The notes beneath the pieces are model-generated. The model worked only from the letters and a program-made list of their open reading frames with translations. It was not told the DNA's origin and did not search any database. A DNA stretch of 64,000 nucleotides from an uncultured Methylocystaceae bacterium (GTDB taxonomy: Bacteria; Pseudomonadota; Alphaproteobacteria; Rhizobiales; Beijerinckiaceae): the NCBI GenBank assembly GCA_903870245.1, contig CAIQCB010000033.1:62001-126000 (forward strand). Direction: 5' to 3'. The position numbers were made by a program, and so were the translations under genes. This document shows, piece by piece, positions 49,358 to 61,188 of this stretch; the stretch's first letter is position 1, and every line of letters begins with the position of its first letter.

Positions 49358-49642
49358 AGGCAGGCCCCCTTTTCCCGCATGACCATGGTTAACCTTAAGC
49401 AATAACCGCCGACTTCTCAATTCGGCCGGGCGCCTGATATCTCCCGGGGGGAGGGGCGGAGGCCGGTGGACTGCGGTGCGGCGATGCGACGCTTGGCGGG
49501 AGACGCGTATAGGCGATCCAGCGAGGCGACGTCCAAAACCCCGCGAGAATTTCCGGGAGATTCCGCTTGTCGTCCGCCGCTCGCGCGACCTATAACCCCC
49601 GACGTGTGCGGGCGTGGCGAAACTGGTAGACGCAACGGACTT

Positions 49643-49870
49643 GAAAAATTGAGTGCCCGTCCGGGAAACCGGCGGTGCAGAACCGCTCAAATTCGGGGAA
49701 ACCTCCAAAAGTGGCGATCCCGAGCCAAGCCCGCCGATTCCGGCGGGAAGGTGTAGAGACTAGACGGGCGGCGCCTAAGGCGCGCCGGGTCGAAAGCCCG
49801 GCGGCGACGGCGAAGGGATAGTCCAGACCCCAAACCCGATTTCGGGGCGGCGAAAGCCGTAGAGGGTACG
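49643..49870 (+). ncRNA. Group I intron (IC3-like) in tRNA-Leu(UAA)
   Basis: A 228-nt intron. P1 pairs exon ACUU with intron GAGU (49651-49654), giving the required G·U at the 5' splice site; the last base is G (49870). Core elements are visible in order: P (around 49690-49705), Q (about 49716-49728), R with GTGTAGAGACTAGACGGGC (49751-49769) and S with AAGGGATAGTCC (from 49813). P7 pairs GACTA with TAGTC; P3 pairs GCCCGT (49655) with ACGGGC (49764); P6 and P8 are local hairpins. No endonuclease ORF is present. It should self-splice with guanosine. Confidence 0.9.
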
Positions 49871-49924
49871 AAAATCCGTAGGGCCGAAAGGCCTGTGCCG
49901 GTTCGATTCCGGCCGCCCGCACCA
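49871..49924 (+). other. Probable attachment site (attL) in the tRNA 3' exon
   Basis: The tRNA 3' exon, containing the T arm and CCA end, directly precedes an integrase gene pointing towards it. This is the standard layout for tyrosine-integrase elements using the 3' half of a tRNA. No second copy occurs in the window, so the other end must lie beyond 64000. The exact crossover is unknown. Confidence 0.7.
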
Positions 49925-50015
49925 TTTCCTCTTTCGTTCTAGTTTAGACCACTGTTTTTACAGTGGTTTCTTTTTAGGTGGTAACAACGTCTTGGCAGGG
50001 TGGTAACATAGAAAC

Positions 50016-51056
50016 TCATTTCGTTCTCTTTTTCGCTAGCTTAGCGATGGCCTCTTTCGCTAATTTTGCCCTGTCGGCGCGCTCCGTATAGAGGCTCGCC
50101 ATGCGAGAGCCAGACCAACCAAAAATCGCGTTAAGCTGATGGATGGTGGCGCCAGCTTCGGCCATTCGATTAGCTCCTGATTTACGCAATCCATGAGCCG
50201 AGCCACTCACGCCGGCGGCGTTGCAAACGCCTCGAAACCAGTTTCCGAATGCTTCCTTCACGAAAGGCTTGCCAGTATTGCTAGTGATAATCGTCAGGTC
50301 TCCAGCGGGGCTGGCGTCGATAATCTTCTTCAAAATCGGAAGAAGCGGAATCGTGACAAAGGTTCCTGTCTTCTCAGTTGGAAGCTGGATAATTCCGTTT
50401 CTTATATGCTGGTTGCCTAAACGCGCGGCGTCACCACGCCTCAATCCAGTATAGAGAAGAACAGACATAGCTAGACGCTCACGCGTCCCGATCGGCCAGT
50501 AATTCTCAAACTGCTCAATCTCTTCTTCTGTCCATTGTTTGAAACCGCCATTACGCGGCCGTTGGACGCTCTTCACACCGCTTGCTGGGTTAATCTCGAC
50601 TAGGCCTGCTTCTTGCGCCCAATCGAATAGATTCCGCATGACGTTGATAAATTCGTTGGCAGCGGAAGGCGTAGCGCGTTTTGCATCTCGTGTTGCTGCG
50701 ATGTCGGCTTTTGTTATGGTTGTATATGGTTTGTCGCCAACCTTCTTTTCGATGTTCTTCAGGATATTGCCACGAGCGCGCTGGGTTGACCCTTTAAGCT
50801 GCGACCAAGCAGACGTTTCCCGATAACGAGCAATCAACCAGGAAAGTGACTCCGGCGAATGTCTGGGTTTTTCTATTGCTTTCGGCACCGTCCCCGCAAC
50901 GATGGCGTGATACGAAGCCATAAATTCTTCGGATCCGTAATCGCCACGCACGCGTATTTGCGGGCCAGGACGACGCCAAACATACCAGCCCGTCTTTCCA
51001 TGACGGCTAATCCGCTTGATAAGGTATGGTGGGCGGGGCTTGGGCATATCAATCAT
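50016..51056 (-). CDS. int: Tyrosine integrase
   Basis: A 346-residue site-specific recombinase of the phage integrase family. The core-binding domain (about residues 60-165) precedes the catalytic domain with Arg in LLYTGLRRGDAARL, the H-x-x-R box HGLRKSGANRMAEAG and the nucleophilic Tyr in GWSGSRMASLYTERADR. It should integrate and excise the element at the adjacent tRNA-Leu 3' end. Its start overlaps the stop of the small gene upstream (ATGA). The repeat block at 51484-51522 lies upstream of this operon. Confidence 0.93.
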   Translation of the reverse strand: MIDMPKPRPPYLIKRISRHGKTGWYVWRRPGPQIRVRGDYGSEEFMASYHAIVAGTVPKAIEKPRHSPESLSWLIARYRETSAWSQLKGSTQRARGNILKNIEKKVGDKPYTTITKADIAATRDAKRATPSAANEFINVMRNLFDWAQEAGLVEINPASGVKSVQRPRNGGFKQWTEEEIEQFENYWPIGTRERLAMSVLLYTGLRRGDAARLGNQHIRNGIIQLPTEKTGTFVTIPLLPILKKIIDASPAGDLTIITSNTGKPFVKEAFGNWFRGVCNAAGVSGSAHGLRKSGANRMAEAGATIHQLNAIFGWSGSRMASLYTERADRAKLAKEAIAKLAKKRTK

Positions 51057-51250
51057 GACAATAGCAGCACCGGCCTGTTTTCAACCTTGAGCTTAGCTTT
51101 ATTGTCGGTTATTTCTCGTTTTTCACACGGTACTAGCCGGATTGTGCCGCCAGGAAGCACCTCGACGGTCACGGTGGCTCCTGTCTGAGCCACAGCGCGC
51201 AATGCGCGGGCGATGTCTGCTTGGGTCACCGATGCAGCTGTGCGTGGCAT
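51053..51250 (-). CDS. Small integrase-linked protein
   Basis: A 65-residue protein, MPRTAASVTQADIARALRAVAQTG..., then a short strand region EVLPGGTIRLV. The ATG at 51250 has AGGAA upstream; an in-frame start at 51283 adds 11 residues. Similar small proteins often precede integrase genes in Rhizobiales islands; I recall them only as hypothetical. The TQADIARAL segment could be the start of a helix-turn-helix, so a role as excisionase or recombination regulator is possible. Coupled to int by ATGA. Confidence 0.6.
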   Translation of the reverse strand: MPRTAASVTQADIARALRAVAQTGATVTVEVLPGGTIRLVPCEKREITDNKAKLKVENRPVLLLS

Positions 51251-51819
51251 TGTGTGTTCCTTGCTGGATTTCAGAACAGTCATGGCTGCCTGAGTTACTT
51301 CTCAACATGTTTGTGCAGCGTGGCGTCGTGTTTTCTTGTGAGAGCTGCCGGCACGTCGAAGTTAATCAGATGTCTCTGGAAAAACCGCTTCTGACAGTCC
51401 TGATGATGTGCGCTAGGCTTCATCGGTTCAAAAACTGTGGTTTCGTAGCACTTTGGTCAACCGTGAAATATTGATTTGGTTGAAAAAGAAACGATAGCGT
51501 AGGATAGCGTAGATTAGCGTAGTACAAATGGCGGCGATGTCTTGGCATCAATTTCTGATCTGAACACTGAAATTGAGTCTTTGTCGTCGAAAGCGGTGTT
51601 TCTGATCTCACCTCTCAAGAACTGAATGGGCCTCAAACTGGGTCGATAACCGCCCTTGTGTCGCGATCAACGCGGCTCGCTTCCTTCACTTCTCTTCGTG
51701 CAGCTCCGCCCCGCTGTGCGGCAGGCTAGGCCTGGCGTTTGATCGCGCCGACGGCTAAGGCCGGTTTGATCTTTCCCATGAGGCCGCAACTCAGCGGCTT
51801 CAAAAAATGGGAGATCAAA
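51251..51819. other. Intergenic regulatory region between int operon and ardC
   Basis: About 570 bases between divergent genes. It contains the 39-base repeat block (51484-51522) facing the int operon, and an AT-rich stretch around 51400-51480. Open frames here (for example 51142-51474 plus) overlap known genes or lack ribosome sites. The ardC start has GGGAGAT upstream at about 51809. No RNA gene is recognised. Confidence 0.5.
51484..51522 (-). repeat. Tandem 10-bp repeats, copy 1 (upstream of int)
   Basis: Read on the minus strand, this is three consecutive 10-bp units of the form CTACGCTAWY followed by GTTTCTTTT. All 39 bases are an exact reverse complement of 62447-62485. It faces the int operon, whose first start is at 51250. 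Confidence 0.85.
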
Positions 51820-52701
51820 ATGAACACTGCTCGTTTCGATATTCACCAGACCATTACGGATCAGATCATCGCGGCGATTGAAGCTGGGGCCGGCGAATTT
51901 AAACTGCCCTGGCATCGTGCTGGCGCAGATCTCCTACATCCCCGAAATGTCGCATCAAAGATTGCTTATCGTGGCGTGAATATTCTGACGCTTTGGCTGA
52001 CCGCTGAAGGCAAGGGCTATAGTTCAGGACTGTGGGGAACCTATAATCAGTGGGCATCGCTTGGCGCGACAATCTGCAAAGGGGAAAAGGCCGCGCATAT
52101 CGTTTTCTACAAACAGGTCGAGATGGATTCTGATAACACAGAAGACAAGAAAACACGTCTCATCGCGCGAGTAACGCCTGTCTTCGCTGCTGAGCAGGTG
52201 ACGGGTTATGAAATAAATACACCCGCTCCATTAAACGCTTCAGAATTCAAACATTTTGAAGAAGCTGAATCCTTTATCAAAAAGACAGGCGCAGAGATCA
52301 TTTACGGATACGATCAGGCCTATTATCAGCCCACCACTGACAGCATTCATCTTCCTCATCGGGAATCTTTTATTGCAACGGAGACTTCTTCAGCAGAAGA
52401 AAACTTTTACTCTGTTCTTTTCCACGAGATGACCCATTATTCGGGAACGCAGGAACGCTGCAATCGTGATCTCACCGGTAGATTTGGGTCTGAATCCTAC
52501 GCCATGGAAGAGCTTGTTGCCGAGCTCGGCGCCGCATTTCTTTGCGGACACTTCAATATTTCTTCTTCGCCACGTCAGGATCATGCACAATATTTGACGC
52601 ATTGGTTGTCGATTATGAAGTCAGACAAGCGCGCCATCTTCACCGCCGCCAGCAAGGCGTCTCAAGCCGTCGACTTCCTCACACGCGAGACGGTCTCATG
52701 A
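51820..52701 (+). CDS. ArdC-like antirestriction protein with zincin domain
   Basis: About 293 residues. The N-terminal ssDNA-binding-like domain (about residues 5-125; TITDQIIAAIEAGAG, then WHR, and GYSSGLWGTYNQWASLGATICKGEKA) is followed by a metallopeptidase-like domain with the zinc motif FHEMTHYSGT (H-E-x-x-H, about residue 202). ArdC proteins protect incoming conjugative DNA from host restriction. ATG 51820 is chosen for the ribosome site and family start; an in-frame ATG at 51739 is less likely. A position near one end of the element suits early expression after transfer. Confidence 0.88.
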   Translation: MNTARFDIHQTITDQIIAAIEAGAGEFKLPWHRAGADLLHPRNVASKIAYRGVNILTLWLTAEGKGYSSGLWGTYNQWASLGATICKGEKAAHIVFYKQVEMDSDNTEDKKTRLIARVTPVFAAEQVTGYEINTPAPLNASEFKHFEEAESFIKKTGAEIIYGYDQAYYQPTTDSIHLPHRESFIATETSSAEENFYSVLFHEMTHYSGTQERCNRDLTGRFGSESYAMEELVAELGAAFLCGHFNISSSPRQDHAQYLTHWLSIMKSDKRAIFTAASKASQAVDFLTRETVS

Positions 52702-52813
52702 CCGCCTCGCATCTTTTTATTTACAAGACTCGCGAGTCTGCTAGAATCTTGCTCGCGCGAAGGAGGAGGAGGCAAGCGCAATCCCTCAATTTCTTGATTG
52801 GGACTGCCTTGCC

Positions 52814-53347
52814 ATGATCATTTTTGGCCTCTTCGCCGGCTTTGCAGCCGCATTCGCCTTTCTGTGTGTGTTGATTAATCTTGCCGCTCTGGCCTTGCCC
52901 GTCTGGGTGGCGAGCTCGGTTTTTTTCTTTCTCGAAAAATCAGGAGAGGGACTCATCGGCGCGGGCGTTCTTGGTCTCGTCGCTGGAGCAGCAACATATT
53001 TTGTCGGCGTCATCACTTGCGCCAGGGCGCCGTCTCGAGCCTTATCTCTTCTGATTGCTCTTATCTTCGCCATACCCGCTGGCGCTGCGGGCTATCATGT
53101 TGGTTCTGGCCTCAGTCGTCTTGTCTTCATTGCGCCAGTCTTACAGCAGTGCGGCGCCTCATTGACCGTAATTTTTGTTTTCATTCTTTGCTGGCGAAGA
53201 CTATCTCCGATGGGGAACTCCCCGCCAGATATTCAGGGAAAAAGGGCCGCTAAATCTGCGGCATCCATTCTTGATGCGGAGTTCACGGAAGTCCCAAATA
53301 GATGCAGAGCTACGCCACTTTTGATTGATGCAGACAACAAAATTTAA
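52814..53347 (+). CDS. Hypothetical four-helix membrane protein
   Basis: A 177-residue protein with four predicted membrane helices (about residues 5-42 as one or two, 50-70, 78-100, 108-128), followed by a hydrophilic tail ending near ILDAEFTEVPN. It begins right at an ATG preceded by a weak ribosome site. I do not recognise a family. It lies between ardC and a non-coding gap in the ICE and may be accessory cargo. Confidence 0.55.
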   Translation: MIIFGLFAGFAAAFAFLCVLINLAALALPVWVASSVFFFLEKSGEGLIGAGVLGLVAGAATYFVGVITCARAPSRALSLLIALIFAIPAGAAGYHVGSGLSRLVFIAPVLQQCGASLTVIFVFILCWRRLSPMGNSPPDIQGKRAAKSAASILDAEFTEVPNRCRATPLLIDADNKI

Positions 53348-53842
53348 TCGCCGCTGCCTCGAACCATCACGTTCGACTAACGTCGCGATCCCAGCGGTAG
53401 AGACTTTATCATTACGTCAACTCATATTTTACGAGAAGCTAGGGGGAGCGACACGTTTTTGCTGTTGGATCGAAGTCCTGCTGACTATCGCCTGCTAATG
53501 AAGGAATATTCGCACAATTTCCAAACTGCCGGTTTAAGCGCTGACCTCATCGCCAACATCTCCTTGAAGACATTGGAACCAACCATCCAACCTTGCTTCC
53601 TCTTGATAGGCCTGATCTAGCCGAAGGCCGGCCTTGCCTCTTTCGTCTGTCTGCAACGCGGCTTTAAAACTTTCTTCCCCTGGCTACGCCATTCCGCGCG
53701 AAACAAGAAAGTTCCTCAGCCTGCGTCCTCCGCGGCGCTTCGGCCTCAAATGAGGTGCAGCGCCGATAAGCCTTCGTCTCCTGATCCGCCATCGAGGCCG
53801 CGATGGGCGTGGTTTCGAAACAAATGATCAAGGAGAAATATC
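53348..53842. other. Intergenic gap within the ICE, no gene seen
   Basis: About 495 bases with stops in all frames at short intervals. There is no tRNA-like or known RNA pattern and no copy of the element's repeats. The last part should hold the promoter of the DUF736 gene, whose ribosome site AAGGAGAAA is at about 53830-53838. Confidence 0.4.
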
Positions 53843-54166
53843 ATGGCGACCATCGGTTCTTTCAAAAAGTCCGGCTCGGAATATGTCGGCGAAATCGCGA
53901 CTCTCAACATCCAGGTCAAGAATGTCAGGATCGTTCCTGAGGCGACCCGCGCCAACGACATCGCGCCGACCCACATTATCTATCTCGGCAAATCCACTGT
54001 AGGCGCCGGCTGGGCAAAACGCTCTGCTGAAAATCGCGACTATCTGTCGATCAAGCTGGATGATCCGAGCCTGGCGGCGCCGATCTACGCCAACCTCTTC
54101 GACAATGAAGGCGGTGAGGGCTCTAGCCTGGTCTGGTCCCGTAGTCGCAAGAACGGGAGCGAATAA
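53843..54166 (+). CDS. DUF736 protein, first copy
   Basis: A 107-residue protein typical of DUF736: MATIGSFKKSG at the start, GEIATLNIQVKNVRIVPE, and the core AENRDYLSIKLDDPSLAAPIYANLF. DUF736 proteins are small beta-rich proteins frequent in conjugative plasmids and ICEs of alphaproteobacteria; function unknown. The element carries a second, diverged copy at 58052. A hairpin follows at 54183. Confidence 0.9.
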   Translation: MATIGSFKKSGSEYVGEIATLNIQVKNVRIVPEATRANDIAPTHIIYLGKSTVGAGWAKRSAENRDYLSIKLDDPSLAAPIYANLFDNEGGEGSSLVWSRSRKNGSE

Positions 54167-54182
54167 GCTTCCCAACGACCTC

Positions 54183-54210
54183 TTCCCCGCCCGGATCTCT
54201 GGGCGGGGAA
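54183..54210 (+). terminator. Hairpin after DUF736 gene
   Basis: TTCCCCGCCC (54183-54192) and GGGCGGGGAA (54201-54210) form a 10-bp stem with an 8-base loop, 16 bases after the stop. The following sequence is TATATCG rather than a T run, so it may be a weak terminator or a 3' stabilising hairpin. Confidence 0.6.
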
Positions 54211-54278
54211 TATATCGCTGATAGATTCTCAGGAACCCATTCTTGGAAGAATCCAAGCTCAGTGACACAGCTTTTGAG

Positions 54279-54369
54279 GCTATGCGATTTTTCGCATAGC
54301 TAGGATCGGATTAGGCCCTAAAACCTATAATCAATGACTTATGACGAGCGCTATACGTTTTTTCGTATA
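54279..54369 (+). promoter_or_regulatory. Two operator-like palindromes upstream of DUF2285 gene
   Basis: Site A at 54281-54298 and site B at 54352-54369 fit the 18-bp palindrome TATRCGWTTTTTCGYATA, with starts 71 bases apart. A degenerate third site (TGTGCGTTTTTACG) follows at about 54374. All lie in AT-rich DNA 100-190 bases before the regulator gene at 54470. The T-rich centre and symmetric arms suit a dimeric DNA-binding protein, perhaps the downstream regulator itself. Confidence 0.6.
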
Positions 54370-54469
54370 ACCCTGTGCGTTTTTACGGCCTACACAGCCC
54401 ATTTTGGGTCAATATGTTTTTCTCCATGTAATCTGGAAATATTATTCCAAAAACATGGAGTTTTGGGCG

Positions 54470-55210
54470 ATGATGCCCGATTGGCGTTCTGCAAAAGCTT
54501 ATGAAGGCGTCACAGGTCTCATGCCACGTGAGATCGCCTGGGAGTTTTTGCGTCGCAATCCGGCCTATCGAGCGGACTTCAAACAATCCCGACATATGTC
54601 GGGTGACGCAGCGGAAAAAATTTCACAACGCTGGGGGCTCAGATTTATCGTCGATCCAAAAATTCCAGCGAATGACGCCGGCGTCTTCTGGCTGCATGAT
54701 GAATGCACTTCTGTTCTCATTCTCTCAAACGCCAAACCATCACCAAAAACCCGCGCCTTTTCACTGTCAGATCTGCCTAGTTTCTTTAAATGGCGACACG
54801 CGCAAGAGGGCGCGCATATCCTTGTTCGGCAGCAGGGTTATAAATTCCAGCTGTTTACGACTGGAGAGGTCGACCCTCAGGAAAGCTTGCAAGTCAACAT
54901 CCCAATAGATGCTGGTGCGAGCATTAGATGCGCGGTCGCGGGTAGATTTTCCCGATTCATTAATGGCGAACCACCCATGCAAATACGACGTCGTAACGGC
55001 GTCTATGAAAGATTGCGTGACTCAATCCGGGTGTTAGACGCTCGCCTTGCTGGGGTGAGCTACCATGAGATAGCTGAAGTCTTTCTTGGCTCTCATCGTC
55101 TTGAGGGCGAGGCCTGGAAAACATCCTCATCTCGCGCTGTCACTATTCGGCTCTCGAAGCTCGGACACAGGCTGATGTCTGGTGGATATGAGAAGCTGCT
55201 TCATATCTAG
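54470..55210 (+). CDS. DUF2285/DUF6499-type ICE regulator
   Basis: About 246 residues. The N-terminal MMPDWRSAKAYEGVTG...AWEFLRRNPAYRADF is the DUF6499-type start. The C-terminal half has the DUF2285 pattern YERLRDSIRVLDARLAGVSYHEIAEVFLG and a helix-turn-helix-like tail ending RLSKLGHRLMSGGYEKLL. Such proteins regulate transfer genes in Rhizobiales ICEs, sometimes as paired activators. ATG 54470 has GGAG at 54457-54460; ATG 54455 is an alternative. Two palindromic sites upstream suggest autoregulation. Confidence 0.78.
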   Translation: MMPDWRSAKAYEGVTGLMPREIAWEFLRRNPAYRADFKQSRHMSGDAAEKISQRWGLRFIVDPKIPANDAGVFWLHDECTSVLILSNAKPSPKTRAFSLSDLPSFFKWRHAQEGAHILVRQQGYKFQLFTTGEVDPQESLQVNIPIDAGASIRCAVAGRFSRFINGEPPMQIRRRNGVYERLRDSIRVLDARLAGVSYHEIAEVFLGSHRLEGEAWKTSSSRAVTIRLSKLGHRLMSGGYEKLLHI

Positions 55211-55285
55211 CCGGATGCCTCCGCCCGCCCCCACGCTGACCGTCTGGGGGGTGATGTTTTTTGACAGGCAAAATTCGTCATCCCC

Positions 55286-55302
55286 CTACGCTATTCTACT
55301 AC
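55286..55302 (+). repeat. 10-bp repeat, degenerate copy upstream of alpA-repA
   Basis: CTACGCTATT followed by CTACTAC differs slightly from the exact unit pair CTACGCTATC-CTACGCT. It lies 66 bases before the AlpA-like start, in the same orientation relative to transcription as the other copies. Confidence 0.5.
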
Positions 55303-55368
55303 GACAGAGTGACCGCCATCCGCCGCCGATTTTCGGCAGGCGGCTCGAAACATCGAGATTGGCGATCC

Positions 55369-55656
55369 ATGCAAAGCAAATTTTCCCAACCGCAGCGCGG
55401 ATATCTCTGCACGCCGCTGGCCGGCATTTTTCTTGGCGTGTCTGGCCGGACGCTTGAAAAGCACCGCAGCTATGGCACCGGCCCCCGCTTCTCAAAGCTG
55501 GGTGGAAGGGTCGTCTACAAAATCGAAGATCTGGAAGAATGGGCTGACGGGGCTGTTCGAGCGTCCACGCTTGATCCTGGGTTCAGCGAGATCACCGCAA
55601 CTACTCGGTCATATAGCAGGGCCATGTCCCGCTATGTCGGCTATCCCGAACGCTAA
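55369..55656 (+). CDS. AlpA/excisionase-like DNA-binding protein
   Basis: A 95-residue protein with a MerR-type helix-turn-helix: YLCTPLAGIFLGVSGRTLEKHRSYGTGPRFSKLGGRVVYKIEDLEEWAD. This is the helix-turn-helix_17/AlpA pattern, where the K-I-E-D-L-x-x-W segment forms the wing. Such proteins sit directly upstream of RepA in these elements and may regulate excision or replication. The start at 55369 omits a 36-residue upstream extension without similarity. Confidence 0.8.
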   Translation: MQSKFSQPQRGYLCTPLAGIFLGVSGRTLEKHRSYGTGPRFSKLGGRVVYKIEDLEEWADGAVRASTLDPGFSEITATTRSYSRAMSRYVGYPER

Positions 55657-55672
55657 TCGAGGAGAGTCGCTC

Positions 55673-56953
55673 ATGCTTAAACTCTCATCTCGATCTGAAA
55701 CAGCACAGATCCATTCATCCCAGCCATATTTTGGTGACAACAGGGCGCGTTGCGTCCAGATGCTGATGGCGCATCCCTTCTTCAGTCTATCCAAGACGCC
55801 ACGTCTGGCGCCGATTGATTACGCCAGCGGAACCTCCACAATTTTGGTTGAGGCGACAGGGATCCACGGAATTGCGACCATATGGGACGCCGATATTTTA
55901 ATCTGGTTGGCTTCCCAGATCATGAGAAGCAACAAAGACGACGGTGTTTCCACCGCCAGACTTATTGAAGCGCGCCCCCATGAAATTTTGACCTTCCTGG
56001 ACTGGGATCATTCCAAGCGTAGCTATGAACGCCTCCGCGCTAGCCTGTCCCGTCTCAGCGCAACGAGGGTCACCACCTCTCTGGGCCCTGGGTCCGTTGG
56101 AGGACTCCGTCATTTTCACTGGATTGAAGAGTGGCGAGAACTGAAAGAAGAAGATGGTCGCTCAACGTGCCTTCAAATTATTCTGTCTGAATGGGTCTAC
56201 GACGCTATCGTGACGCCAGGCGGTTGCCTGACGATCGATAAAGACTTTTTCTATCTGACGGGCGGCTTGCAGCGCTGGCTCTATCTGCTGGTCCGCAAAC
56301 ATGGCGGGTTTCAGGAAGACGGCTGGCAGTTCGACCTTCGCTACCTTTATCAAAAGTCCGGGCTTCTCTCTCGCTCTGTCGCCTTCGTGGCGGAGATCAG
56401 GCGGATTGTGCGACGCCAGAGCATCCCTGGTTACGAACTCTCCATCGTGACGAGTGGCGCGGGAAAAGAGGTGCTGCGATTCAAAAATCTCGCCTGTGGA
56501 AAAGCTGTGGATTCGAACGTGTTAACACGTGTCAAACCGCACGTGTTAACACGTCCAAAACGAACGTGTTATCAATGGTCACAATCGAATCCATCGCGTT
56601 GTAATCAAGACGTTCGCGGATCCCGTAAAATATATTCTAAAATAGATTCTAAATATTTATTGGAACGAGACCTTGTGAATAACGCCTCTTCTGAGGCGAC
56701 ATCGAAGCGTCAAAATCCATCAGCATTCGGTTTAGGAGTTGAGGCAAACAACCGGGCTCATGGACCTTCAACCTTAAAATCCTTCTCAGAGTTAGAATCC
56801 CTCTACGCCATTCTCCCTGGATCGTCATCAAGAGCCCAAAAGCCTCAGGATCGAAAGGAAGGCCCGCCAGATCGGTTCAGACAAGGGCCAAGCCCATCCC
56901 TGCTAAATAGCAGGCTGTTTCGGCAAATCTCCGACGCAGGAGACGCGCAATGA
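55673..56953 (+). CDS. repA: Replication initiator protein RepA (RPA family)
   Basis: About 426 residues with a RepA-type core: MAHPFFSLSKTPRLAPIDY, IATIWDADILIWLASQIM, FLDWDHSKRSYERLRASLSRLSATRV, TIDKDFFYLTGGLQRWLYLLVRKHGG. Two winged-helix domains are expected in the first 290 residues. The tail is polar and AT-rich at DNA level and contains iteron-like palindromes (56517-56570), so DNA signal and protein coding overlap. ATG 55673 has GAGGAG upstream. Presence of an initiator in an integrated element suggests autonomous replication after excision. DUF2840 overlaps its stop (ATGA). Confidence 0.88.
   Translation: MLKLSSRSETAQIHSSQPYFGDNRARCVQMLMAHPFFSLSKTPRLAPIDYASGTSTILVEATGIHGIATIWDADILIWLASQIMRSNKDDGVSTARLIEARPHEILTFLDWDHSKRSYERLRASLSRLSATRVTTSLGPGSVGGLRHFHWIEEWRELKEEDGRSTCLQIILSEWVYDAIVTPGGCLTIDKDFFYLTGGLQRWLYLLVRKHGGFQEDGWQFDLRYLYQKSGLLSRSVAFVAEIRRIVRRQSIPGYELSIVTSGAGKEVLRFKNLACGKAVDSNVLTRVKPHVLTRPKRTCYQWSQSNPSRCNQDVRGSRKIYSKIDSKYLLERDLVNNASSEATSKRQNPSAFGLGVEANNRAHGPSTLKSFSELESLYAILPGSSSRAQKPQDRKEGPPDRFRQGPSPSLLNSRLFRQISDAGDAQ
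56517..56570 (+). repeat. Iteron-like palindromes inside repA
   Basis: ACGTGTTAACACGT occurs at 56517-56530 and 56541-56554 (perfect 14-bp palindromes, starts 24 bases apart), and a half site ACGTGTT at 56564-56570. The repeated codons give NVLTRV, HVLTRP in the protein. Regular spacing near two helical turns suggests RepA-binding iterons within the gene. Confidence 0.7.
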
Positions 56954-57471
56954 CGATGCGTGCGCTCTCCCCCATACAGCAGGCGGCGCTGGATAGCCGC
57001 CGACCTTTCGACAATCTGACCCATGTCGAGCTGACCATTGTGCCGAAAAAAGTCGAGCAATGGCTACGCTTTGGCGATCCGATTGAGCGGACGGTCATCA
57101 ACCGCATTCGTAGCGTCGCGAGCTTCAAGCCGGGGCAGGTTTTTGGCTTCGTGCGGTGGGCGGCAAACAACTCTGGGACGATCATTTCCCGTCTCGATAT
57201 CGTGCGAACGATTGATCGAGGAGAGGCCTATCAGACGCTTCCCTTCGTGCGGCCTGGCGGAGAGATTTTTCTCCGCGTCGAGAGCTGGCCGAAGGTCGAG
57301 CGGGTCTTCCAAGAGGTCGACGCCATTGAGGCGATTGGCATTTATCCGCCGGACGTTTCACCCGCTTATTGGCGTCACGTGCACAATCGGCTGGCGGTCA
57401 ATCAAGAGCCGCGACACTATACGCGCATCCAGCACAGGGCTTGGCTTCTACGCGCCAGCGCACAGTCATGA
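56950..57471 (+). CDS. DUF2840 protein
   Basis: A 173-residue protein matching DUF2840: LTHVELTIVPKKVEQWLRFG, RSVASFKPGQVFGFVRWAANNSGT, RPGGEIFLRVESWPKVERVF and DVSPAYWRHVHNRL. It is found between repA and traF in conjugative elements; function unknown. Its start overlaps repA and its end overlaps traF, both by ATGA, so repA-DUF2840-traF are translationally coupled. Confidence 0.88.
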   Translation: MTMRALSPIQQAALDSRRPFDNLTHVELTIVPKKVEQWLRFGDPIERTVINRIRSVASFKPGQVFGFVRWAANNSGTIISRLDIVRTIDRGEAYQTLPFVRPGGEIFLRVESWPKVERVFQEVDAIEAIGIYPPDVSPAYWRHVHNRLAVNQEPRHYTRIQHRAWLLRASAQS

Positions 57472-57992
57472 GCACATCATCTAATTGGCTCATGGCGAGC
57501 GCCACGGCAGGTCTGATCGCTGCTCTTGGAGTGATCAAGCCCACGCCTCGGCTGGTCTGGAACGCGAGCGCCAGTGCGCCGCTTGGGCTCTACTGGGTTG
57601 AGCCGTCAGCGACTCCAAAGCTGGGTGATCTTCTGGCGATCCGTGCGCCAGAAAAGCTCGCGCGACTGATGGATGCGCGCGGCTATCTGCCGATGAATGC
57701 GTTGCTTCTGAAGCGTGTGGCGGCGCTCTCGGGTGAGAAGGTTTGTCGGGAGGGTGAGCGCGTTATTGTCGCTGGAAAAGTCATCGCGCTCGCTAAACGA
57801 ACCGACGCTCAGGGGCGTCGTTTGCCTGTCTGGCAGGGATGCCAGCGGCTCGCTGACGACGAGGTTTTTCTAGTCAACACACAAGTTAAAGACAGCCTGG
57901 ATGGCCGCTATTTCGGGCCATCTCTCAAGAACTCCATCATCGGTCTAGCGCATCCAATCTGGACCGATGACGCGAGCGCCGGCCGGCGCTGA
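57468..57992 (+). CDS. traF: TraF signal peptidase (S26) for pilin processing
   Basis: A 174-residue serine peptidase of the S26 family. It has an N-terminal membrane helix, the catalytic serine in SASAPLGLYWV, the general-base lysine in ALLLKRVAALSGE and the DSLDGRYFGP segment near the C terminus. In conjugation systems TraF processes and cyclises the pilin. Start at 57468 (ATGA overlap with DUF2840). The pilin gene must lie outside the window. Confidence 0.9.
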   Translation: MSTSSNWLMASATAGLIAALGVIKPTPRLVWNASASAPLGLYWVEPSATPKLGDLLAIRAPEKLARLMDARGYLPMNALLLKRVAALSGEKVCREGERVIVAGKVIALAKRTDAQGRRLPVWQGCQRLADDEVFLVNTQVKDSLDGRYFGPSLKNSIIGLAHPIWTDDASAGRR

Positions 57993-58051
57993 TCGCGCCT
58001 GTCGTTCATCAACCCAGCAACTCAAAACTCAGACAAGAAAGGAGCCATATC

Positions 58052-58390
58052 ATGGCTTTGATCGGCGTATTTGCGCCCACCAATGACGGCTTCACCGGCT
58101 ACATCAAGACGCTTCTCCTCAATATTGAGGCGACGCTGACGCCGCCTCTGGACGCATCACATGAAAACGCGCCCGACTATCGGATCACGCTCGGAAAGGG
58201 GAGTGACGGCGCGGTGATTGGCTTTGCGCGAAACAGAAAAACGGAGGAAGGGCGCGAGTTCATTTCCTTTGTGATGGATGATCCAACGCTGGCCAATCCA
58301 ATCTTCGCCGTACTCTTCCCAACCGATAAATCGAATAAGACCCACCACCTTTATTGGACGCGGGCGAGCCGCCGGGATGACAAGCTATGA
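58052..58390 (+). CDS. DUF736 protein, second copy
   Basis: A 112-residue DUF736 member: MALIGVFAPTNDGFTGYIKTLLLNIEATLTP, then NRKTEEGREFISFVMDDPTLANPIFAVLF. It is only distantly similar to the copy at 53843, so they are old paralogues, not a recent duplication. It lies between traF and the transglycosylase, with AAAGGAG upstream; the downstream gene overlaps its stop. Confidence 0.9.
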   Translation: MALIGVFAPTNDGFTGYIKTLLLNIEATLTPPLDASHENAPDYRITLGKGSDGAVIGFARNRKTEEGREFISFVMDDPTLANPIFAVLFPTDKSNKTHHLYWTRASRRDDKL

Positions 58391-59166
58391 GAGGACAACT
58401 GATCGTCTCTCATGCACGATATGGCAGGCGGCGTCCTGGTTTTCTGGCCTGCGTAGCGGCCGCGACCGGGCTCATCTTGGTCGGTTCGCTGATGGTCACG
58501 TCGTCGGTCAACGCAGCTGAACGGGCTGTTTTGAAACCGCCATCAGGTGCGCGTGGTGGCTCCATGGAGGCGATCCGATCGGATGTTGAGGAAGCGTCAC
58601 GGCGCTTCCTCATCCCCAGCTCCTGGATATGGGCGGTGATGAAAGTTGAGAGCGCGGGCGATGTCCGCGCTCTCTCCAACAAGGGCGCGATGGGTCTGAT
58701 GCAGATCATGCCCAAGACGTGGGAGACGCTGCGACAGCAGCACCGTCTGGGCGCCGATCCCTATGATCCGCGTGACAATATTCTGGCGGGCGCAGCCTAT
58801 CTCGGTGAGCTCTATGATCGCTACGGAGAACGAGGCTTCCTGGCCGCCTATAACGCCGGTCCTGGTCGATACGAAGACCATCTGAACGGCCGACGCTCGC
58901 TACCCGTTGAGACAGTTGATTACGTCTCAAAAGTCAGCCAGCGGATCATTTCTGACTCACGATCTTTCGCATTGCCGAACACCGAAGATGGGTCATCGCC
59001 GCACAATTCTGGGCTCTTTGTGGGGTCAAATTTAGATCCACGTAGCGACCAACAAACAGATGAGAAACGACCTTCCGAGCGTTCATCAATTGATCAACGC
59101 ATTGTCGATCTCTCGGCAATCACGCCGCGCGCGTCTGGTCTTTTTGTGGCTCCGTCGCGACCCTGA
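58387..59166 (+). CDS. Lytic transglycosylase (SLT)
   Basis: A 259-residue secreted or membrane-anchored enzyme. The N-terminal hydrophobic segment (FLACVAAATGLILVGSLMV) is followed by a C-type lysozyme-like SLT domain with the catalytic Glu in WAVMKVESAGDVRALSNKGAMGLMQIMPKTW and AAYNAGPGRY. It opens peptidoglycan for the conjugation channel. The last 80 residues are polar without motif. ATG overlaps the DUF736 stop (ATGA). Confidence 0.92.
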   Translation: MRGQLIVSHARYGRRRPGFLACVAAATGLILVGSLMVTSSVNAAERAVLKPPSGARGGSMEAIRSDVEEASRRFLIPSSWIWAVMKVESAGDVRALSNKGAMGLMQIMPKTWETLRQQHRLGADPYDPRDNILAGAAYLGELYDRYGERGFLAAYNAGPGRYEDHLNGRRSLPVETVDYVSKVSQRIISDSRSFALPNTEDGSSPHNSGLFVGSNLDPRSDQQTDEKRPSERSSIDQRIVDLSAITPRASGLFVAPSRP

Positions 59167-59280
59167 GTGGGCGCCTTCCAACGATCAATCCCATGAGAAT
59201 ATTCATGCAAATACTTGAAAATCATTCACTGGAAAACCAGACAAAAACTCAACGACCGACCTACGACAAGATAAAAGGCT

Positions 59281-59396
59281 TGGCGCCAACGCAACATAAG
59301 CCTCTGACGAGACTCATGTTTGCTGGCGCCAGTCGGTCGGGGCTGGCGCCAGTGTTTCGTCATTCTCGTTTCCTTTCAATGATAATTCTGGCGCCA
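59281..59396. repeat. Cluster of TGGCGCCA palindromes, oriT candidate
   Basis: TGGCGCCA occurs at 59281-59288, 59324-59331, 59344-59351 and 59389-59396, with a fifth at 59538-59545 inside the relaxase gene. The upstream four lie in the 261-base gap before the relaxase start, where transfer origins are often found. The repeats could be relaxosome or regulator binding sites. No nic site is proven. Confidence 0.55.
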
Positions 59397-59398
59397 GC

Positions 59399-59415
59399 CT
59401 ACGCTATCCTACGCT
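59399..59415 (+). repeat. 10-bp repeat pair upstream of relaxase
   Basis: CTACGCTATC followed by CTACGCT, directly after the last TGGCGCCA palindrome and 12 bases before the relaxase ATG. Same unit as the blocks at 51484 and 62447. Its TATCCTAC core also resembles P-type nic sequences (YATCCTG), an alternative reading. Confidence 0.7.
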
Positions 59416-59427
59416 GGAGCACGATCC

Positions 59428-61188
59428 ATGCGTGAGGATGACAATGAGTTCAGCATCCGTCCTGGCAAGGTTTTGAGCAGAGGTGGCGGCAAACCCAAGA
59501 GCTTCGTCAATGAGGTTCTGCTCGCCGCTAAAAAGGCTGGCGCCAAAACCTCAACACTGGGGCGCAGTGGCGGGATCATGCCAGGACGCTCAACCTTTGG
59601 AAGGGGACGCAACGCTTTCGGCCGATCGCGGCTGCAATCATCAGGAAGGCGCGTGACGGTCAAGAGCCGGATCGCCCGGCATCAGGGCAAAGCTTTCCGC
59701 TCGGCCCCCATGGCTAATCACCTGTCCTATCTCAAACGCGATGGCGTCACCCGTGACGGCGAACGCGCCACCATGTTTGACGCCAAGAGCGACCGGGCAG
59801 ATGAGGGGGCGTTTGCGCAAAGGTGTGCTGAGGACCGTCACCACTTCCGCTTCATCATCTCACCGGAGGACGCCGCGGAGATGGAGGATCTTCGCGCCTT
59901 CACCCGAGACCTTACTCAGCAGATGGAGAAGGATCTCGGGACAAGGCTCGACTGGGTGGCTGTCGATCATTGGAACACCGACAACCCGCATATTCATCTT
60001 CTGGTCCGGGGCGTGGACGAGACCGGCGCCGATCTCGTCATCGCGCGCGATTATATCAGCGCCGGCATGCGCTCCCGCACCGAGGATCTTGTCGCCCTTG
60101 AACTTGGTCCCAAGCCAGAGCACGAGATCCGCGCCAGCCTAGAACGGGAGGCGACGGCTGACCGCTGGACGCGTCTTGATCGTGAGATCAAATCTCGCGC
60201 CGACGAGATGGGGCTGGTGGATATGAGGCCGGAGCAGCCTGGGCCGGAAGATCCCTTCATGCGCCGACAAATGATCAGACGACTCCAATATCTCGAAACC
60301 ATGGGACTTACCGTCACAGATGGCGCCGGTCAGTGGGTGTTGGGCGTTGAGACGGAGGAGCGGCTCCGAGATCTCGGACTGCGTGGCGACATCATCAAGA
60401 CCATGCACCGGGCCCTGACTGAGAGGGGACTGGAGCGAGCATTTGAAGATTATGTCATCGAGTCTCCTGACAGAAACCCGCCGATTGTCGGCCGACTGGT
60501 CGCCACAGGTCTGCATGATGAACTTTCTGGCGAAGCCTATGCGATCATCGATGGTGTGGACGGGCGCGCGCACCACATTCGCTTCAAGGAGGTGGAAGCA
60601 TTTGAGCACGCACCGAACTTTGGTGGCGTGGTTGAACTCCGGCGCTTTGGTGCCCCTGATGACCCTCACCCAACCCTTGTTCTCGCGAACCACTCCGATC
60701 TGGCTCTCGCTGCTCAGGTCAACGCCCCTGGGGCGACATGGCTTGATCACCGGCTGGTTGAGCGTGCACCGATGACCCTGGCGCATAATGGCTTTGGCGA
60801 AGAGGTTCGTCGCGCCTTGCGGGAGCGGACAGATTGTCTGGTCACACAGGGTCTCGCGCGTCGTGACGGCGGGCGCGTCTTCTTCCGCAAAGATCTTCTC
60901 GACACGCTGCGCAACCAGGAGTTGCAGAATATAGGCGAGCAGCTCGCGCAGGAGCGCGGGATGACCTTTAATCCGACGCCGTCTGGAGGTTCGGTGTCAG
61001 GAACCTACCGCGACGCCATCCGCCTCAGTTCGGGCCGGTTCGCCATGATCGACGACGGGCTTGGATTTCAGCTCGTGCCCTGGGCGGCATCGCTGGAGAA
61101 GTTCAAAGACCGACAGGTTTCCGGGATCGCGCGGAATGATGGTGGGATCGATTGGCGGCGGGAGCGGGAAAGGGGGGTGGGACGATAA
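59428..61188 (+). CDS. Relaxase, VirD2-type with DUF3363
   Basis: A 586-residue mobilisation nuclease. The N-terminal region is basic (GRSTFGRGRNAFGRSRLQSSGRR). It contains HHFRFIISPEDAAEM and the His-hydrophobe-His metal motif in DHWNTDNPHIHLLVRGVD (about residues 180-197), followed by the DUF3363 region (about 260-570). It nicks one strand at oriT and pilots DNA into the recipient. ATG 59428 is the only good start. It is normally followed by traG in this family; here a two-gene AT-rich cargo intervenes. Confidence 0.92.
   Translation: MREDDNEFSIRPGKVLSRGGGKPKSFVNEVLLAAKKAGAKTSTLGRSGGIMPGRSTFGRGRNAFGRSRLQSSGRRVTVKSRIARHQGKAFRSAPMANHLSYLKRDGVTRDGERATMFDAKSDRADEGAFAQRCAEDRHHFRFIISPEDAAEMEDLRAFTRDLTQQMEKDLGTRLDWVAVDHWNTDNPHIHLLVRGVDETGADLVIARDYISAGMRSRTEDLVALELGPKPEHEIRASLEREATADRWTRLDREIKSRADEMGLVDMRPEQPGPEDPFMRRQMIRRLQYLETMGLTVTDGAGQWVLGVETEERLRDLGLRGDIIKTMHRALTERGLERAFEDYVIESPDRNPPIVGRLVATGLHDELSGEAYAIIDGVDGRAHHIRFKEVEAFEHAPNFGGVVELRRFGAPDDPHPTLVLANHSDLALAAQVNAPGATWLDHRLVERAPMTLAHNGFGEEVRRALRERTDCLVTQGLARRDGGRVFFRKDLLDTLRNQELQNIGEQLAQERGMTFNPTPSGGSVSGTYRDAIRLSSGRFAMIDDGLGFQLVPWAASLEKFKDRQVSGIARNDGGIDWRRERERGVGR

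Follow-up and report, generated by a model that had tools for sequence, protein, structure and literature searches.

A group I intron in the tRNA-Leu(UAA) gene of a Methylocystis-type alphaproteobacterium, with occupied and empty versions of its site among related genomes

Does an alphaproteobacterial tRNA-Leu(UAA) gene carry a working group I intron, and is such an intron a relic of ancient descent or a traveller between genomes? The question is raised by a locus in a 64,000-nucleotide stretch of DNA (hereafter the window; positions 62001-126000 of contig C33) from a genome that we take to belong to an alphaproteobacterial methane oxidiser of the Methylocystis type, since its GTDB genus includes a genome (G012) sharing an identical contig with the MAG that its depositor labelled Methylocystis sp. 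JZJ.7. According to the accessible part of one source, cyanobacteria, alphaproteobacteria and betaproteobacteria all have group I introns in their tRNAs, with tRNA-Leu(UAA) named for cyanobacteria and plastids (PMC4033280), and the cyanobacterial tRNA-Leu(UAA) introns have long been known, as is evident from the available part of another (PMC5733544). In the window, positions 49608-49924 are confirmed to be a tRNA-Leu(UAA) gene interrupted by a group I intron. The gene is split after U34, the insertion site known from cyanobacteria and plastids.

The gene and its boundaries were recovered by ARAGORN on both raw and spliced DNA (plus strand, U34 at 49642). With the intron option, the raw DNA gives the identical gene and the identical 228-nt intron, while a run without introns reports zero tRNAs across the whole window. 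The parts of the gene are as follows.

49608 to 49642, plus strand: 5' exon of tRNA-Leu(UAA), ending in U34 (ARAGORN, raw and spliced DNA).
49643 to 49870, plus strand: group I intron of 228 nt without a gene of its own, last letter G49870 (RF00028, E 7e-12; ARAGORN).
49871 to 49924, plus strand: 3' exon of tRNA-Leu(UAA), from A35 to the encoded CCA (ARAGORN).

Joining the two exons yields an 89-nt tRNA-Leu(taa) with a perfect fold and an encoded CCA, and the wobble pair U49642.G49651 closes P1 at the 5' splice site. The longest open frame in any of the six frames of the intron has 75 codons (minus strand, spanning the entire intron), so that no homing endonuclease gene fits. A first-pass annotation made from the letters alone had proposed a tRNA split after U34 in an alphaproteobacterial host, at the 34/35 site known from cyanobacteria and plastids, with a G·U at the 5' splice site, a terminal G and a compact 228-nt intron without an endonuclease. 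These coordinates are borne out exactly, and excision of 49643-49870 restores the UAA loop in a perfect tRNA, as that annotation had held. ARAGORN in intron mode mislabels several comparable genes (L010, L018, L023, L025 and L027 as Ser or Phe, and L270 as a stop tRNA); intron-bearing tRNAs were classed via a splice-site search and a reading of the exons. All 131 typed tRNA-Leu(UAA) introns end in G, a terminal G having been a condition of that search.

The identity of the insert follows from the Rfam group I covariance model to which the first-pass annotation had pointed. RF00028 matches 49633-49846 over all of its positions (1-253) at 49.8 bits, with E 7e-12 in a search of 401 bases, and on the whole genome this is the sole match at E up to 0.001 (E 1.3e-11). 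The Rfam gathering score for this model is 50 bits, 0.2 bits above the score of the intron, which is why a default Rfam scan of the whole window returned nothing. A chance match is excluded by the E-value, by the perfect tRNA obtained on excision, by the presence of an intron at the same site in 14 other genomes of the genus and by covariation over 130 introns. From its likeness to the Azoarcus and Anabaena introns, we presume that it belongs to subgroup IC3, the small bacterial tRNA introns.

Covariation was examined in an alignment of 130 tRNA-Leu(UAA) introns (86 bacterial, 42 from viral contigs and two from plasmids), with the duplicate L093 excluded. Across 47 pairs, a standard pairing was found in 91% of cells. 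In the shuffled control the mean was 79% and the best of 200 shuffles reached 79.4%; displacing the helices by 1-3 columns lowered pairing to 28-43%. The latter control is the safer one, since shuffles do not preserve relatedness. The elements of the fold in the window's intron are listed below, with percentages of paired cells in the alignment.

49639 to 49654, plus strand: P1, ACUU (49639-49642) with GAGU (49651-49654), U.G at the 5' splice site; 97% paired.
49661 to 49672, plus strand: P2 tip with a GAAA loop at 49665-49668, read from the sequence.
49683 to 49771, plus strand: P3, CCGCUC (49683-49688) with GGGCGG (49766-49771); 100% paired, shuffled mean 79%.
49693 to 49723, plus strand: P4, 49693-49697 with 49719-49723; 99% paired, shuffled mean 92%.
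49724 to 49726 with 49750 to 49752, plus strand: P6; no better than shuffled.
49730 to 49736 with 49741 to 49747, plus strand, within 49724-49752: P6a; 84% paired, shuffled mean 64%.
49758 to 49823, plus strand: P7, GACUA (49758-49762) with UAGUC (49819-49823), nearly invariant; 100% paired, shuffled mean 98%.
49772 to 49812, plus strand: P8, 49772-49775 with 49809-49812, CCUAAG on the 5' side; 100% paired, shuffled mean 82%.
49835 to 49839 with 49842 to 49846, plus strand, within 49835-49859: P9; 83% paired, shuffled mean 57%.
49848 to 49851 with 49856 to 49859, plus strand: P9b with a GAAA loop; 100% paired, shuffled mean 80%.

The named core helices all pair in the window's intron. P3, P4, P6a, P8, P9 and P9b lie clearly above each of 100 shuffles and P7 narrowly so, and in P3 both sides have changed in 149 of 780 cells. 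The core helices are maintained by compensating changes, and the group I assignment of the first-pass annotation is right. Over the same 130 introns, P1, P6 (which hardly varies) and a proposed P9.0 paired no better than shuffled columns. The alignment rows had been selected for the exon letters ACTT, which were prefixed to every row as a constant, so that P1 yields no covariation evidence. The P9.0 pairing was rejected, as only 44% of its cells paired and this rose to 81% once it was slid by one column. A crude letter search of the P2-tip region recovered a GNRA-type motif in all 87 bacterial and in 37 of 42 phage Leu introns.

In P8, the motifs CCUAAG and UAUGG are presumably the two halves of a tetraloop receptor. 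The window's intron has the first half and lacks the second; both are found in the G012 locus (L009) and in just eight of the 87 bacterial Leu introns overall, so the missing half says little. It is nevertheless the observation on which one would have to build the view that the locus is a decayed intron inside a dead tRNA copy. We regard decay as highly improbable, because the spliced tRNA is perfect, the core helices pair and searches of the genome gave no further tRNA-Leu(UAA). A search with the spliced exons returned the gene itself (in two pieces) and one other full match, a tRNA-Leu(UAG), and the sole match of the uninterrupted-gene pattern in the host genome (G000) is a GACTCAAAATC variant read as tRNA-Leu(CAA). 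Since neither search found a second tRNA-Leu(UAA), splicing is probably needed, and the reading of UUA codons should depend on the intron-bearing gene. The host genome (3.2 Mb, completeness 99.95) is assembled in 66 contigs, where an overlooked second copy is possible.

The intron very probably splices itself out of its precursor. From established knowledge of group I introns we infer both the reaction and its occurrence in the cell: the precursor tRNA would be transcribed whole, and the intron would fold, bind a guanosine at P7 and cut behind U34, at the point that the U.G pair of P1 marks. Once free, U34 would attack after the terminal G, joining the exons as tRNA-Leu(UAA). The alphaproteobacterial tRNA-Arg(CCU) introns of Agrobacterium and Bartonella (BbgpI) share the size class and core of the window's intron, and that of Bartonella is spliced in vivo and self-splicing in vitro, according to the accessible part of its description (PMC7717549). 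They differ in the tRNA and in being split after position 36 rather than 34, and the window's intron, with its tRNA-Leu(UAA) host and position 34, falls outside the tRNA-Arg(CCU) position-36 type.

The distribution of the intron among close relatives was examined in 39 genomes of the genus. A pattern search found the intron-bearing gene in 15 and the uninterrupted gene, at zero mismatches, in 19; none has both and five have neither (G006, G011, G019, G027 and G034, among which G011, G019 and G027 are less than 80% complete). Matches to the group I model pick out the identical 15 intron-bearing genomes. Upstream of the tRNA lie a cinA-like gene and a phosphoribosyltransferase gene (Pfam MoCF_biosynth and Pribosyltran). 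Of 18 uninterrupted loci (one of the 19 genomes being without a locus), 16 have at least one of these genes next to the tRNA, as do all 14 other intron-bearing loci, among which L314, on a short contig, has the nearer gene only. In L275 (G024) and L285 (G033) the tRNA is situated elsewhere. The common upstream genes indicate that most of these sites represent one and the same locus, either with or without the intron.

On a tree of the two upstream genes from 31 genomes (the flank-gene tree), the intron trait needs three changes, against a shuffled mean of 10.5. The hosts of the window and of G012 pair on this tree (98/96), G012 being represented by 40% of columns and a long branch, and their introns pair as well, with support of 84/65 in a large intron tree and 99/89 in a smaller tree that includes Anabaena and Azoarcus outgroups. 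The 15 genus introns form one side of a branch with only 83/76 in the large tree. The window's intron is up to 91.5% identical to the other genus introns over 211 positions. In plain identity an intron from Sphingomonas (L041, 89.2%) is as near to it as most genus introns are, with values of 87.8% for one from Caulobacter (L089) and 87.7% for that of G012. L041 joins the introns of the window and G012 in one further small tree (96/82), where an arrangement that keeps the genus introns as a unit passes the AU test without rejection (p-AU 0.56). Descent of the intron within the genus looks mainly vertical, perhaps with one regain.

The candidate for a regain is G021, an intron-bearing genome nested within a clade with 15 intron-free genomes on the flank-gene tree (100/100). 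Its intron, of 256 nt, occupies the exact tRNA-Leu(UAA) site, and its exons are identical to those of six aligned clade mates except for one position in G004. Over 150 bases upstream of the tRNA, G021 shares 79-95% identity with the 15 mates. Downstream, identity is 84-87% for G004, G005, G015 and G018 and 57-60% for ten mates, with one contig ending there. As both flanks match in these four genomes, their difference from G021 is essentially the 256-nt intron. In the large intron tree the G021 intron lies outside the remaining 14 genus introns (100/99), a position which suggests that the clade lost the intron and G021 regained it; two vertical placings of this intron are not rejected by AU tests (p-AU 0.31 and 0.23).

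Immediately 3' of the tRNA, the window contains a gene series at 50016-61188 that begins with an integrase (50016-51056, minus strand) and continues with an ArdC-like antirestriction protein, a RovC-type regulator, a replication initiator (RPA), DUF2840, an S26 signal peptidase, a lytic transglycosylase and a relaxase with DUF3363. It is an integrative conjugative element, for which the 3' end of tRNA-Leu(UAA) was apparently the integration site. Within about 1.5 kb on each side of 33 genus loci, the integrase is present at the window's own locus only. A second att site was looked for and not found: the end of the 3' exon recurs nowhere else in the window (up to three mismatches in 20 bases) or in the genome (up to three in 25 bases), and none of three short repeat families in 49500-60000 touches the tRNA.

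Beyond the genus, we searched with a 22-base core pattern derived from introns of related genomes, mainly Leu introns, which matched 25 of the 29 loci then available. Against named species genomes it gave at least 121 core hits, and the matches listed include 65 in tRNA-Leu(UAA) after U34, 27 in tRNA-Arg(CCU) after position 36, three in tRNA-Thr(UGU) after position 34 and scattered others; the origin of the pattern biases these proportions towards Leu, while there is no doubt that such introns extend across many orders. Related genomes add 24 core hits, 22 of them in tRNA-Leu(UAA). The 65 Leu loci among the matches listed fall into Alphaproteobacteria (49), Betaproteobacteria (five), Gammaproteobacteria (one), Acidobacteriota (four) and records without a class (six); several are MAG contigs, so single taxon labels may be wrong. 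The suggestion of the first-pass annotation that the site is exceptional for proteobacteria is not supported by these counts, even allowing for the Leu bias of the pattern.

Of the 145 bacterial core hits, 11 stayed without an assigned tRNA type, as did 52 of the 122 from viral contigs. Nine rows initially typed as Leu(UAA), two bacterial and seven viral, were excluded because of a misplaced 3' splice site, and the typed set further lost an Arg row (L144) and a phage Met row. Distinct sequences number 83 among the 87 bacterial Leu introns and 35 among the 42 phage ones; L009 and L093 are the same DNA, the entire 2700 bases of L009 equalling the first 2700 of L093. In a set of 387 genomes drawn evenly from the Alphaproteobacteria, a strict intron pattern gave 20 matches, of which seven were uninterrupted tRNAs, leaving 13, and the uninterrupted pattern matched 169; with patterns this strict, both 13 and 169 are lower bounds. 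The tRNA-Leu(UAA) intron is a minority but widely spread feature, and the window's intron is real, probably functional and ordinary in kind, its wider distribution being the more interesting aspect.

Several further arrangements were seen in the course of these searches. In three of the sampled Alphaproteobacteria, a single contig (G183:C9, G219:C5 and G375:C18) holds tRNA-Leu(UAA) both with the intron and without it, at a distance of about 1.4 to 15 kb. Group I introns of related sequence follow U34 of tRNA-Thr(UGU) in L026, L077, L082 and L134, whose hosts are a genome of the window's family, Massilia, a Thiobacillus MAG and an unplaced proteobacterium. In L008 (G089) the group I intron of a tRNA-Leu(CAA) seems to be inserted after U33, one nucleotide before the usual point.

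The core pattern also recovers introns outside bacterial chromosomes. Viral contigs gave at least 122 core hits, and 42 among the matches listed are tRNA-Leu(UAA) introns at the same position. Among these listed matches, 34 of the 42 have another tRNA within 2 kb (for example L171, L203, L219 and L230), and the stretch L171 holds 30 tRNAs. Of three stretches checked for phage genes, L219 encodes a virion structural protein, an endolysin-like protein and a Mom-like DNA modification protein. L228 and L247, which lie within about 350 bases of contig ends, may be prophage borders. In the large intron tree, 37 of the 42 phage Leu introns form one clade (97/94) adjoining introns of a Rhizobium and of one genome of the window's order, and the remaining five are placed close to Burkholderiales introns at two separate points; in the smaller tree with outgroups, 11 phage rows need five changes and the 37-phage clade is not stable. 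Named phage records contain no match over 80% of the query, and 16 of 50,697 match partly. Two other kinds of intron were noted in viral DNA: a tRNA-Arg(CCU) intron in a viral contig (L165) that pairs with one from Skermanella aerolata (L051; 100/97), and group I introns or cores that interrupt apparent phage protein genes in L005, L028 (G014) and ten viral stretches (L151, L154, L160, L163, L164, L170, L172, L174, L176 and L178), where by eye one gene seems to recur. The protein-gene introns in viral stretches come from 14 of the 52 untyped viral core hits, which were inspected.

One intron-bearing tRNA-Leu(UAA) gene matches 1280 of 72,556 plasmid records, mostly from Enterobacteriaceae, with 1257 matches over at least 80% of the gene and 1273 at 99% identity or more, and the same gene is matched in 635 of 5426 complete E. 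coli genomes. No annotated feature lies on the gene in 22 rows from plasmids and E. coli, the plasmid table being one without RNA genes. In the one plasmid inspected (L270, 6001-6300) the gene lies between an IS26 transposase and genes annotated as an AAA ATPase and as pieces of AAC(3)-II. The plasmid intron groups with that of Enterovirga aerilata in the large tree (97/85), which suggests that this stretch is probably of alphaproteobacterial origin, and the intron-bearing tRNA may indicate the source of the IS26/aac(3)-II segment. It is conceivable, and we advance it tentatively, that Leu introns without an endonuclease cycle via phage tRNA clusters and plasmids, which would serve as both reservoir and carrier, with the site in proteobacteria repeatedly emptied and refilled, for which G021 would be an example, the exons moving along with the intron and recombination replacing the resident tRNA.

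How the intron reached the site in the window's genus is a separate question. A recent horizontal acquisition, whether the donor was a cyanobacterium, a different proteobacterium or a phage, could account for its patchiness in the class (13 of 387 genomes by the strict pattern), for its presence in phage tRNA clusters and on plasmids, for the G021 intron, which sits at the exact site between exons and flanks matching four of 15 intron-free mates and falls outside the other 14 genus introns, and for the close likeness of the Sphingomonas intron. It is nonetheless an unlikely account of the window's intron, which is closest to genus introns and follows the flank-gene tree; vertical placings of G021 are not rejected, and one Anabaena intron is at most 64% identical to any row of the tree. 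Two cyanobacterial-type core patterns, the first of them approximate, found no match in viral contigs.

An intron already present in the shared ancestor of cyanobacteria and proteobacteria, and kept at the same tRNA site since then, would explain why the cyanobacterial and plastid intron agrees with the window's in tRNA, position and general core despite the different host phylum, and the use of the site in Alphaproteobacteria, Betaproteobacteria, one gammaproteobacterium and Acidobacteriota fits this view too. However, the distribution is strongly patchy, close relatives have empty sites and introns with the same core also occupy other tRNAs. In a tree with one Anabaena and one Azoarcus row the deep branches are without resolution, and neither a Leu-only clade (p-AU 0.47) nor a grouping of Leu introns with the cyanobacterium (p-AU 0.37) is rejected, although the latter grouping is not recovered in the tree. 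We consider such ancient descent improbable. In the smaller tree a single branch (98/98) sets the 11 rows of bacterial Arg introns apart, whereas they need two changes in the large one, with a 21-row group at 98/95. The Azoarcus tRNA-Ile(CAU) intron, which is small and has the 22-base core pattern except its first base, differs in tRNA and site and sits on a long branch in the smaller tree. A tRNA-Leu(UAA) intron of 231 nt was reportedly described in 2002 from a Pseudomonas-like gammaproteobacterium; it shares the tRNA outside cyanobacteria and differs in host class. The accessible parts of three sources (PMC3984707, PMC3937112 and PMC1995217) hold nothing on the tRNA-Leu(UAA) site in proteobacteria, and no title found in a literature search announces such introns in Alphaproteobacteria or phage tRNA clusters, which is weak evidence of absence as subscription journals were mostly uncovered. 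We hold with high confidence to the reading of the window's intron as a functional self-splicing group I intron, inherited mainly vertically in its genus and coming and going as a precise insert. Within the genus it would pass mainly from parent to offspring and be gained or, more probably, lost with the locus otherwise unchanged.

These findings bear on how such genes are recognised and how their introns spread. Default gene finding misses what is apparently the cell's only tRNA-Leu(UAA), because the intron both hides the gene and scores just under the Rfam cut-off; as only six of 24 related genomes with a group I match have one above that cut-off, similar genes are probably missed elsewhere too. 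A comparable effect is described for bacterial tRNA-fMet and tRNA-Ile2 genes hidden by group I introns, in the accessible part of the tRNAscan-SE 2.0 paper (PMC8450103). The phage and plasmid copies provide concrete routes of intron spread, and the clean occupied and empty sites at one locus make the question of relic or traveller, for tRNA-Leu(UAA) introns, addressable inside a single genus.
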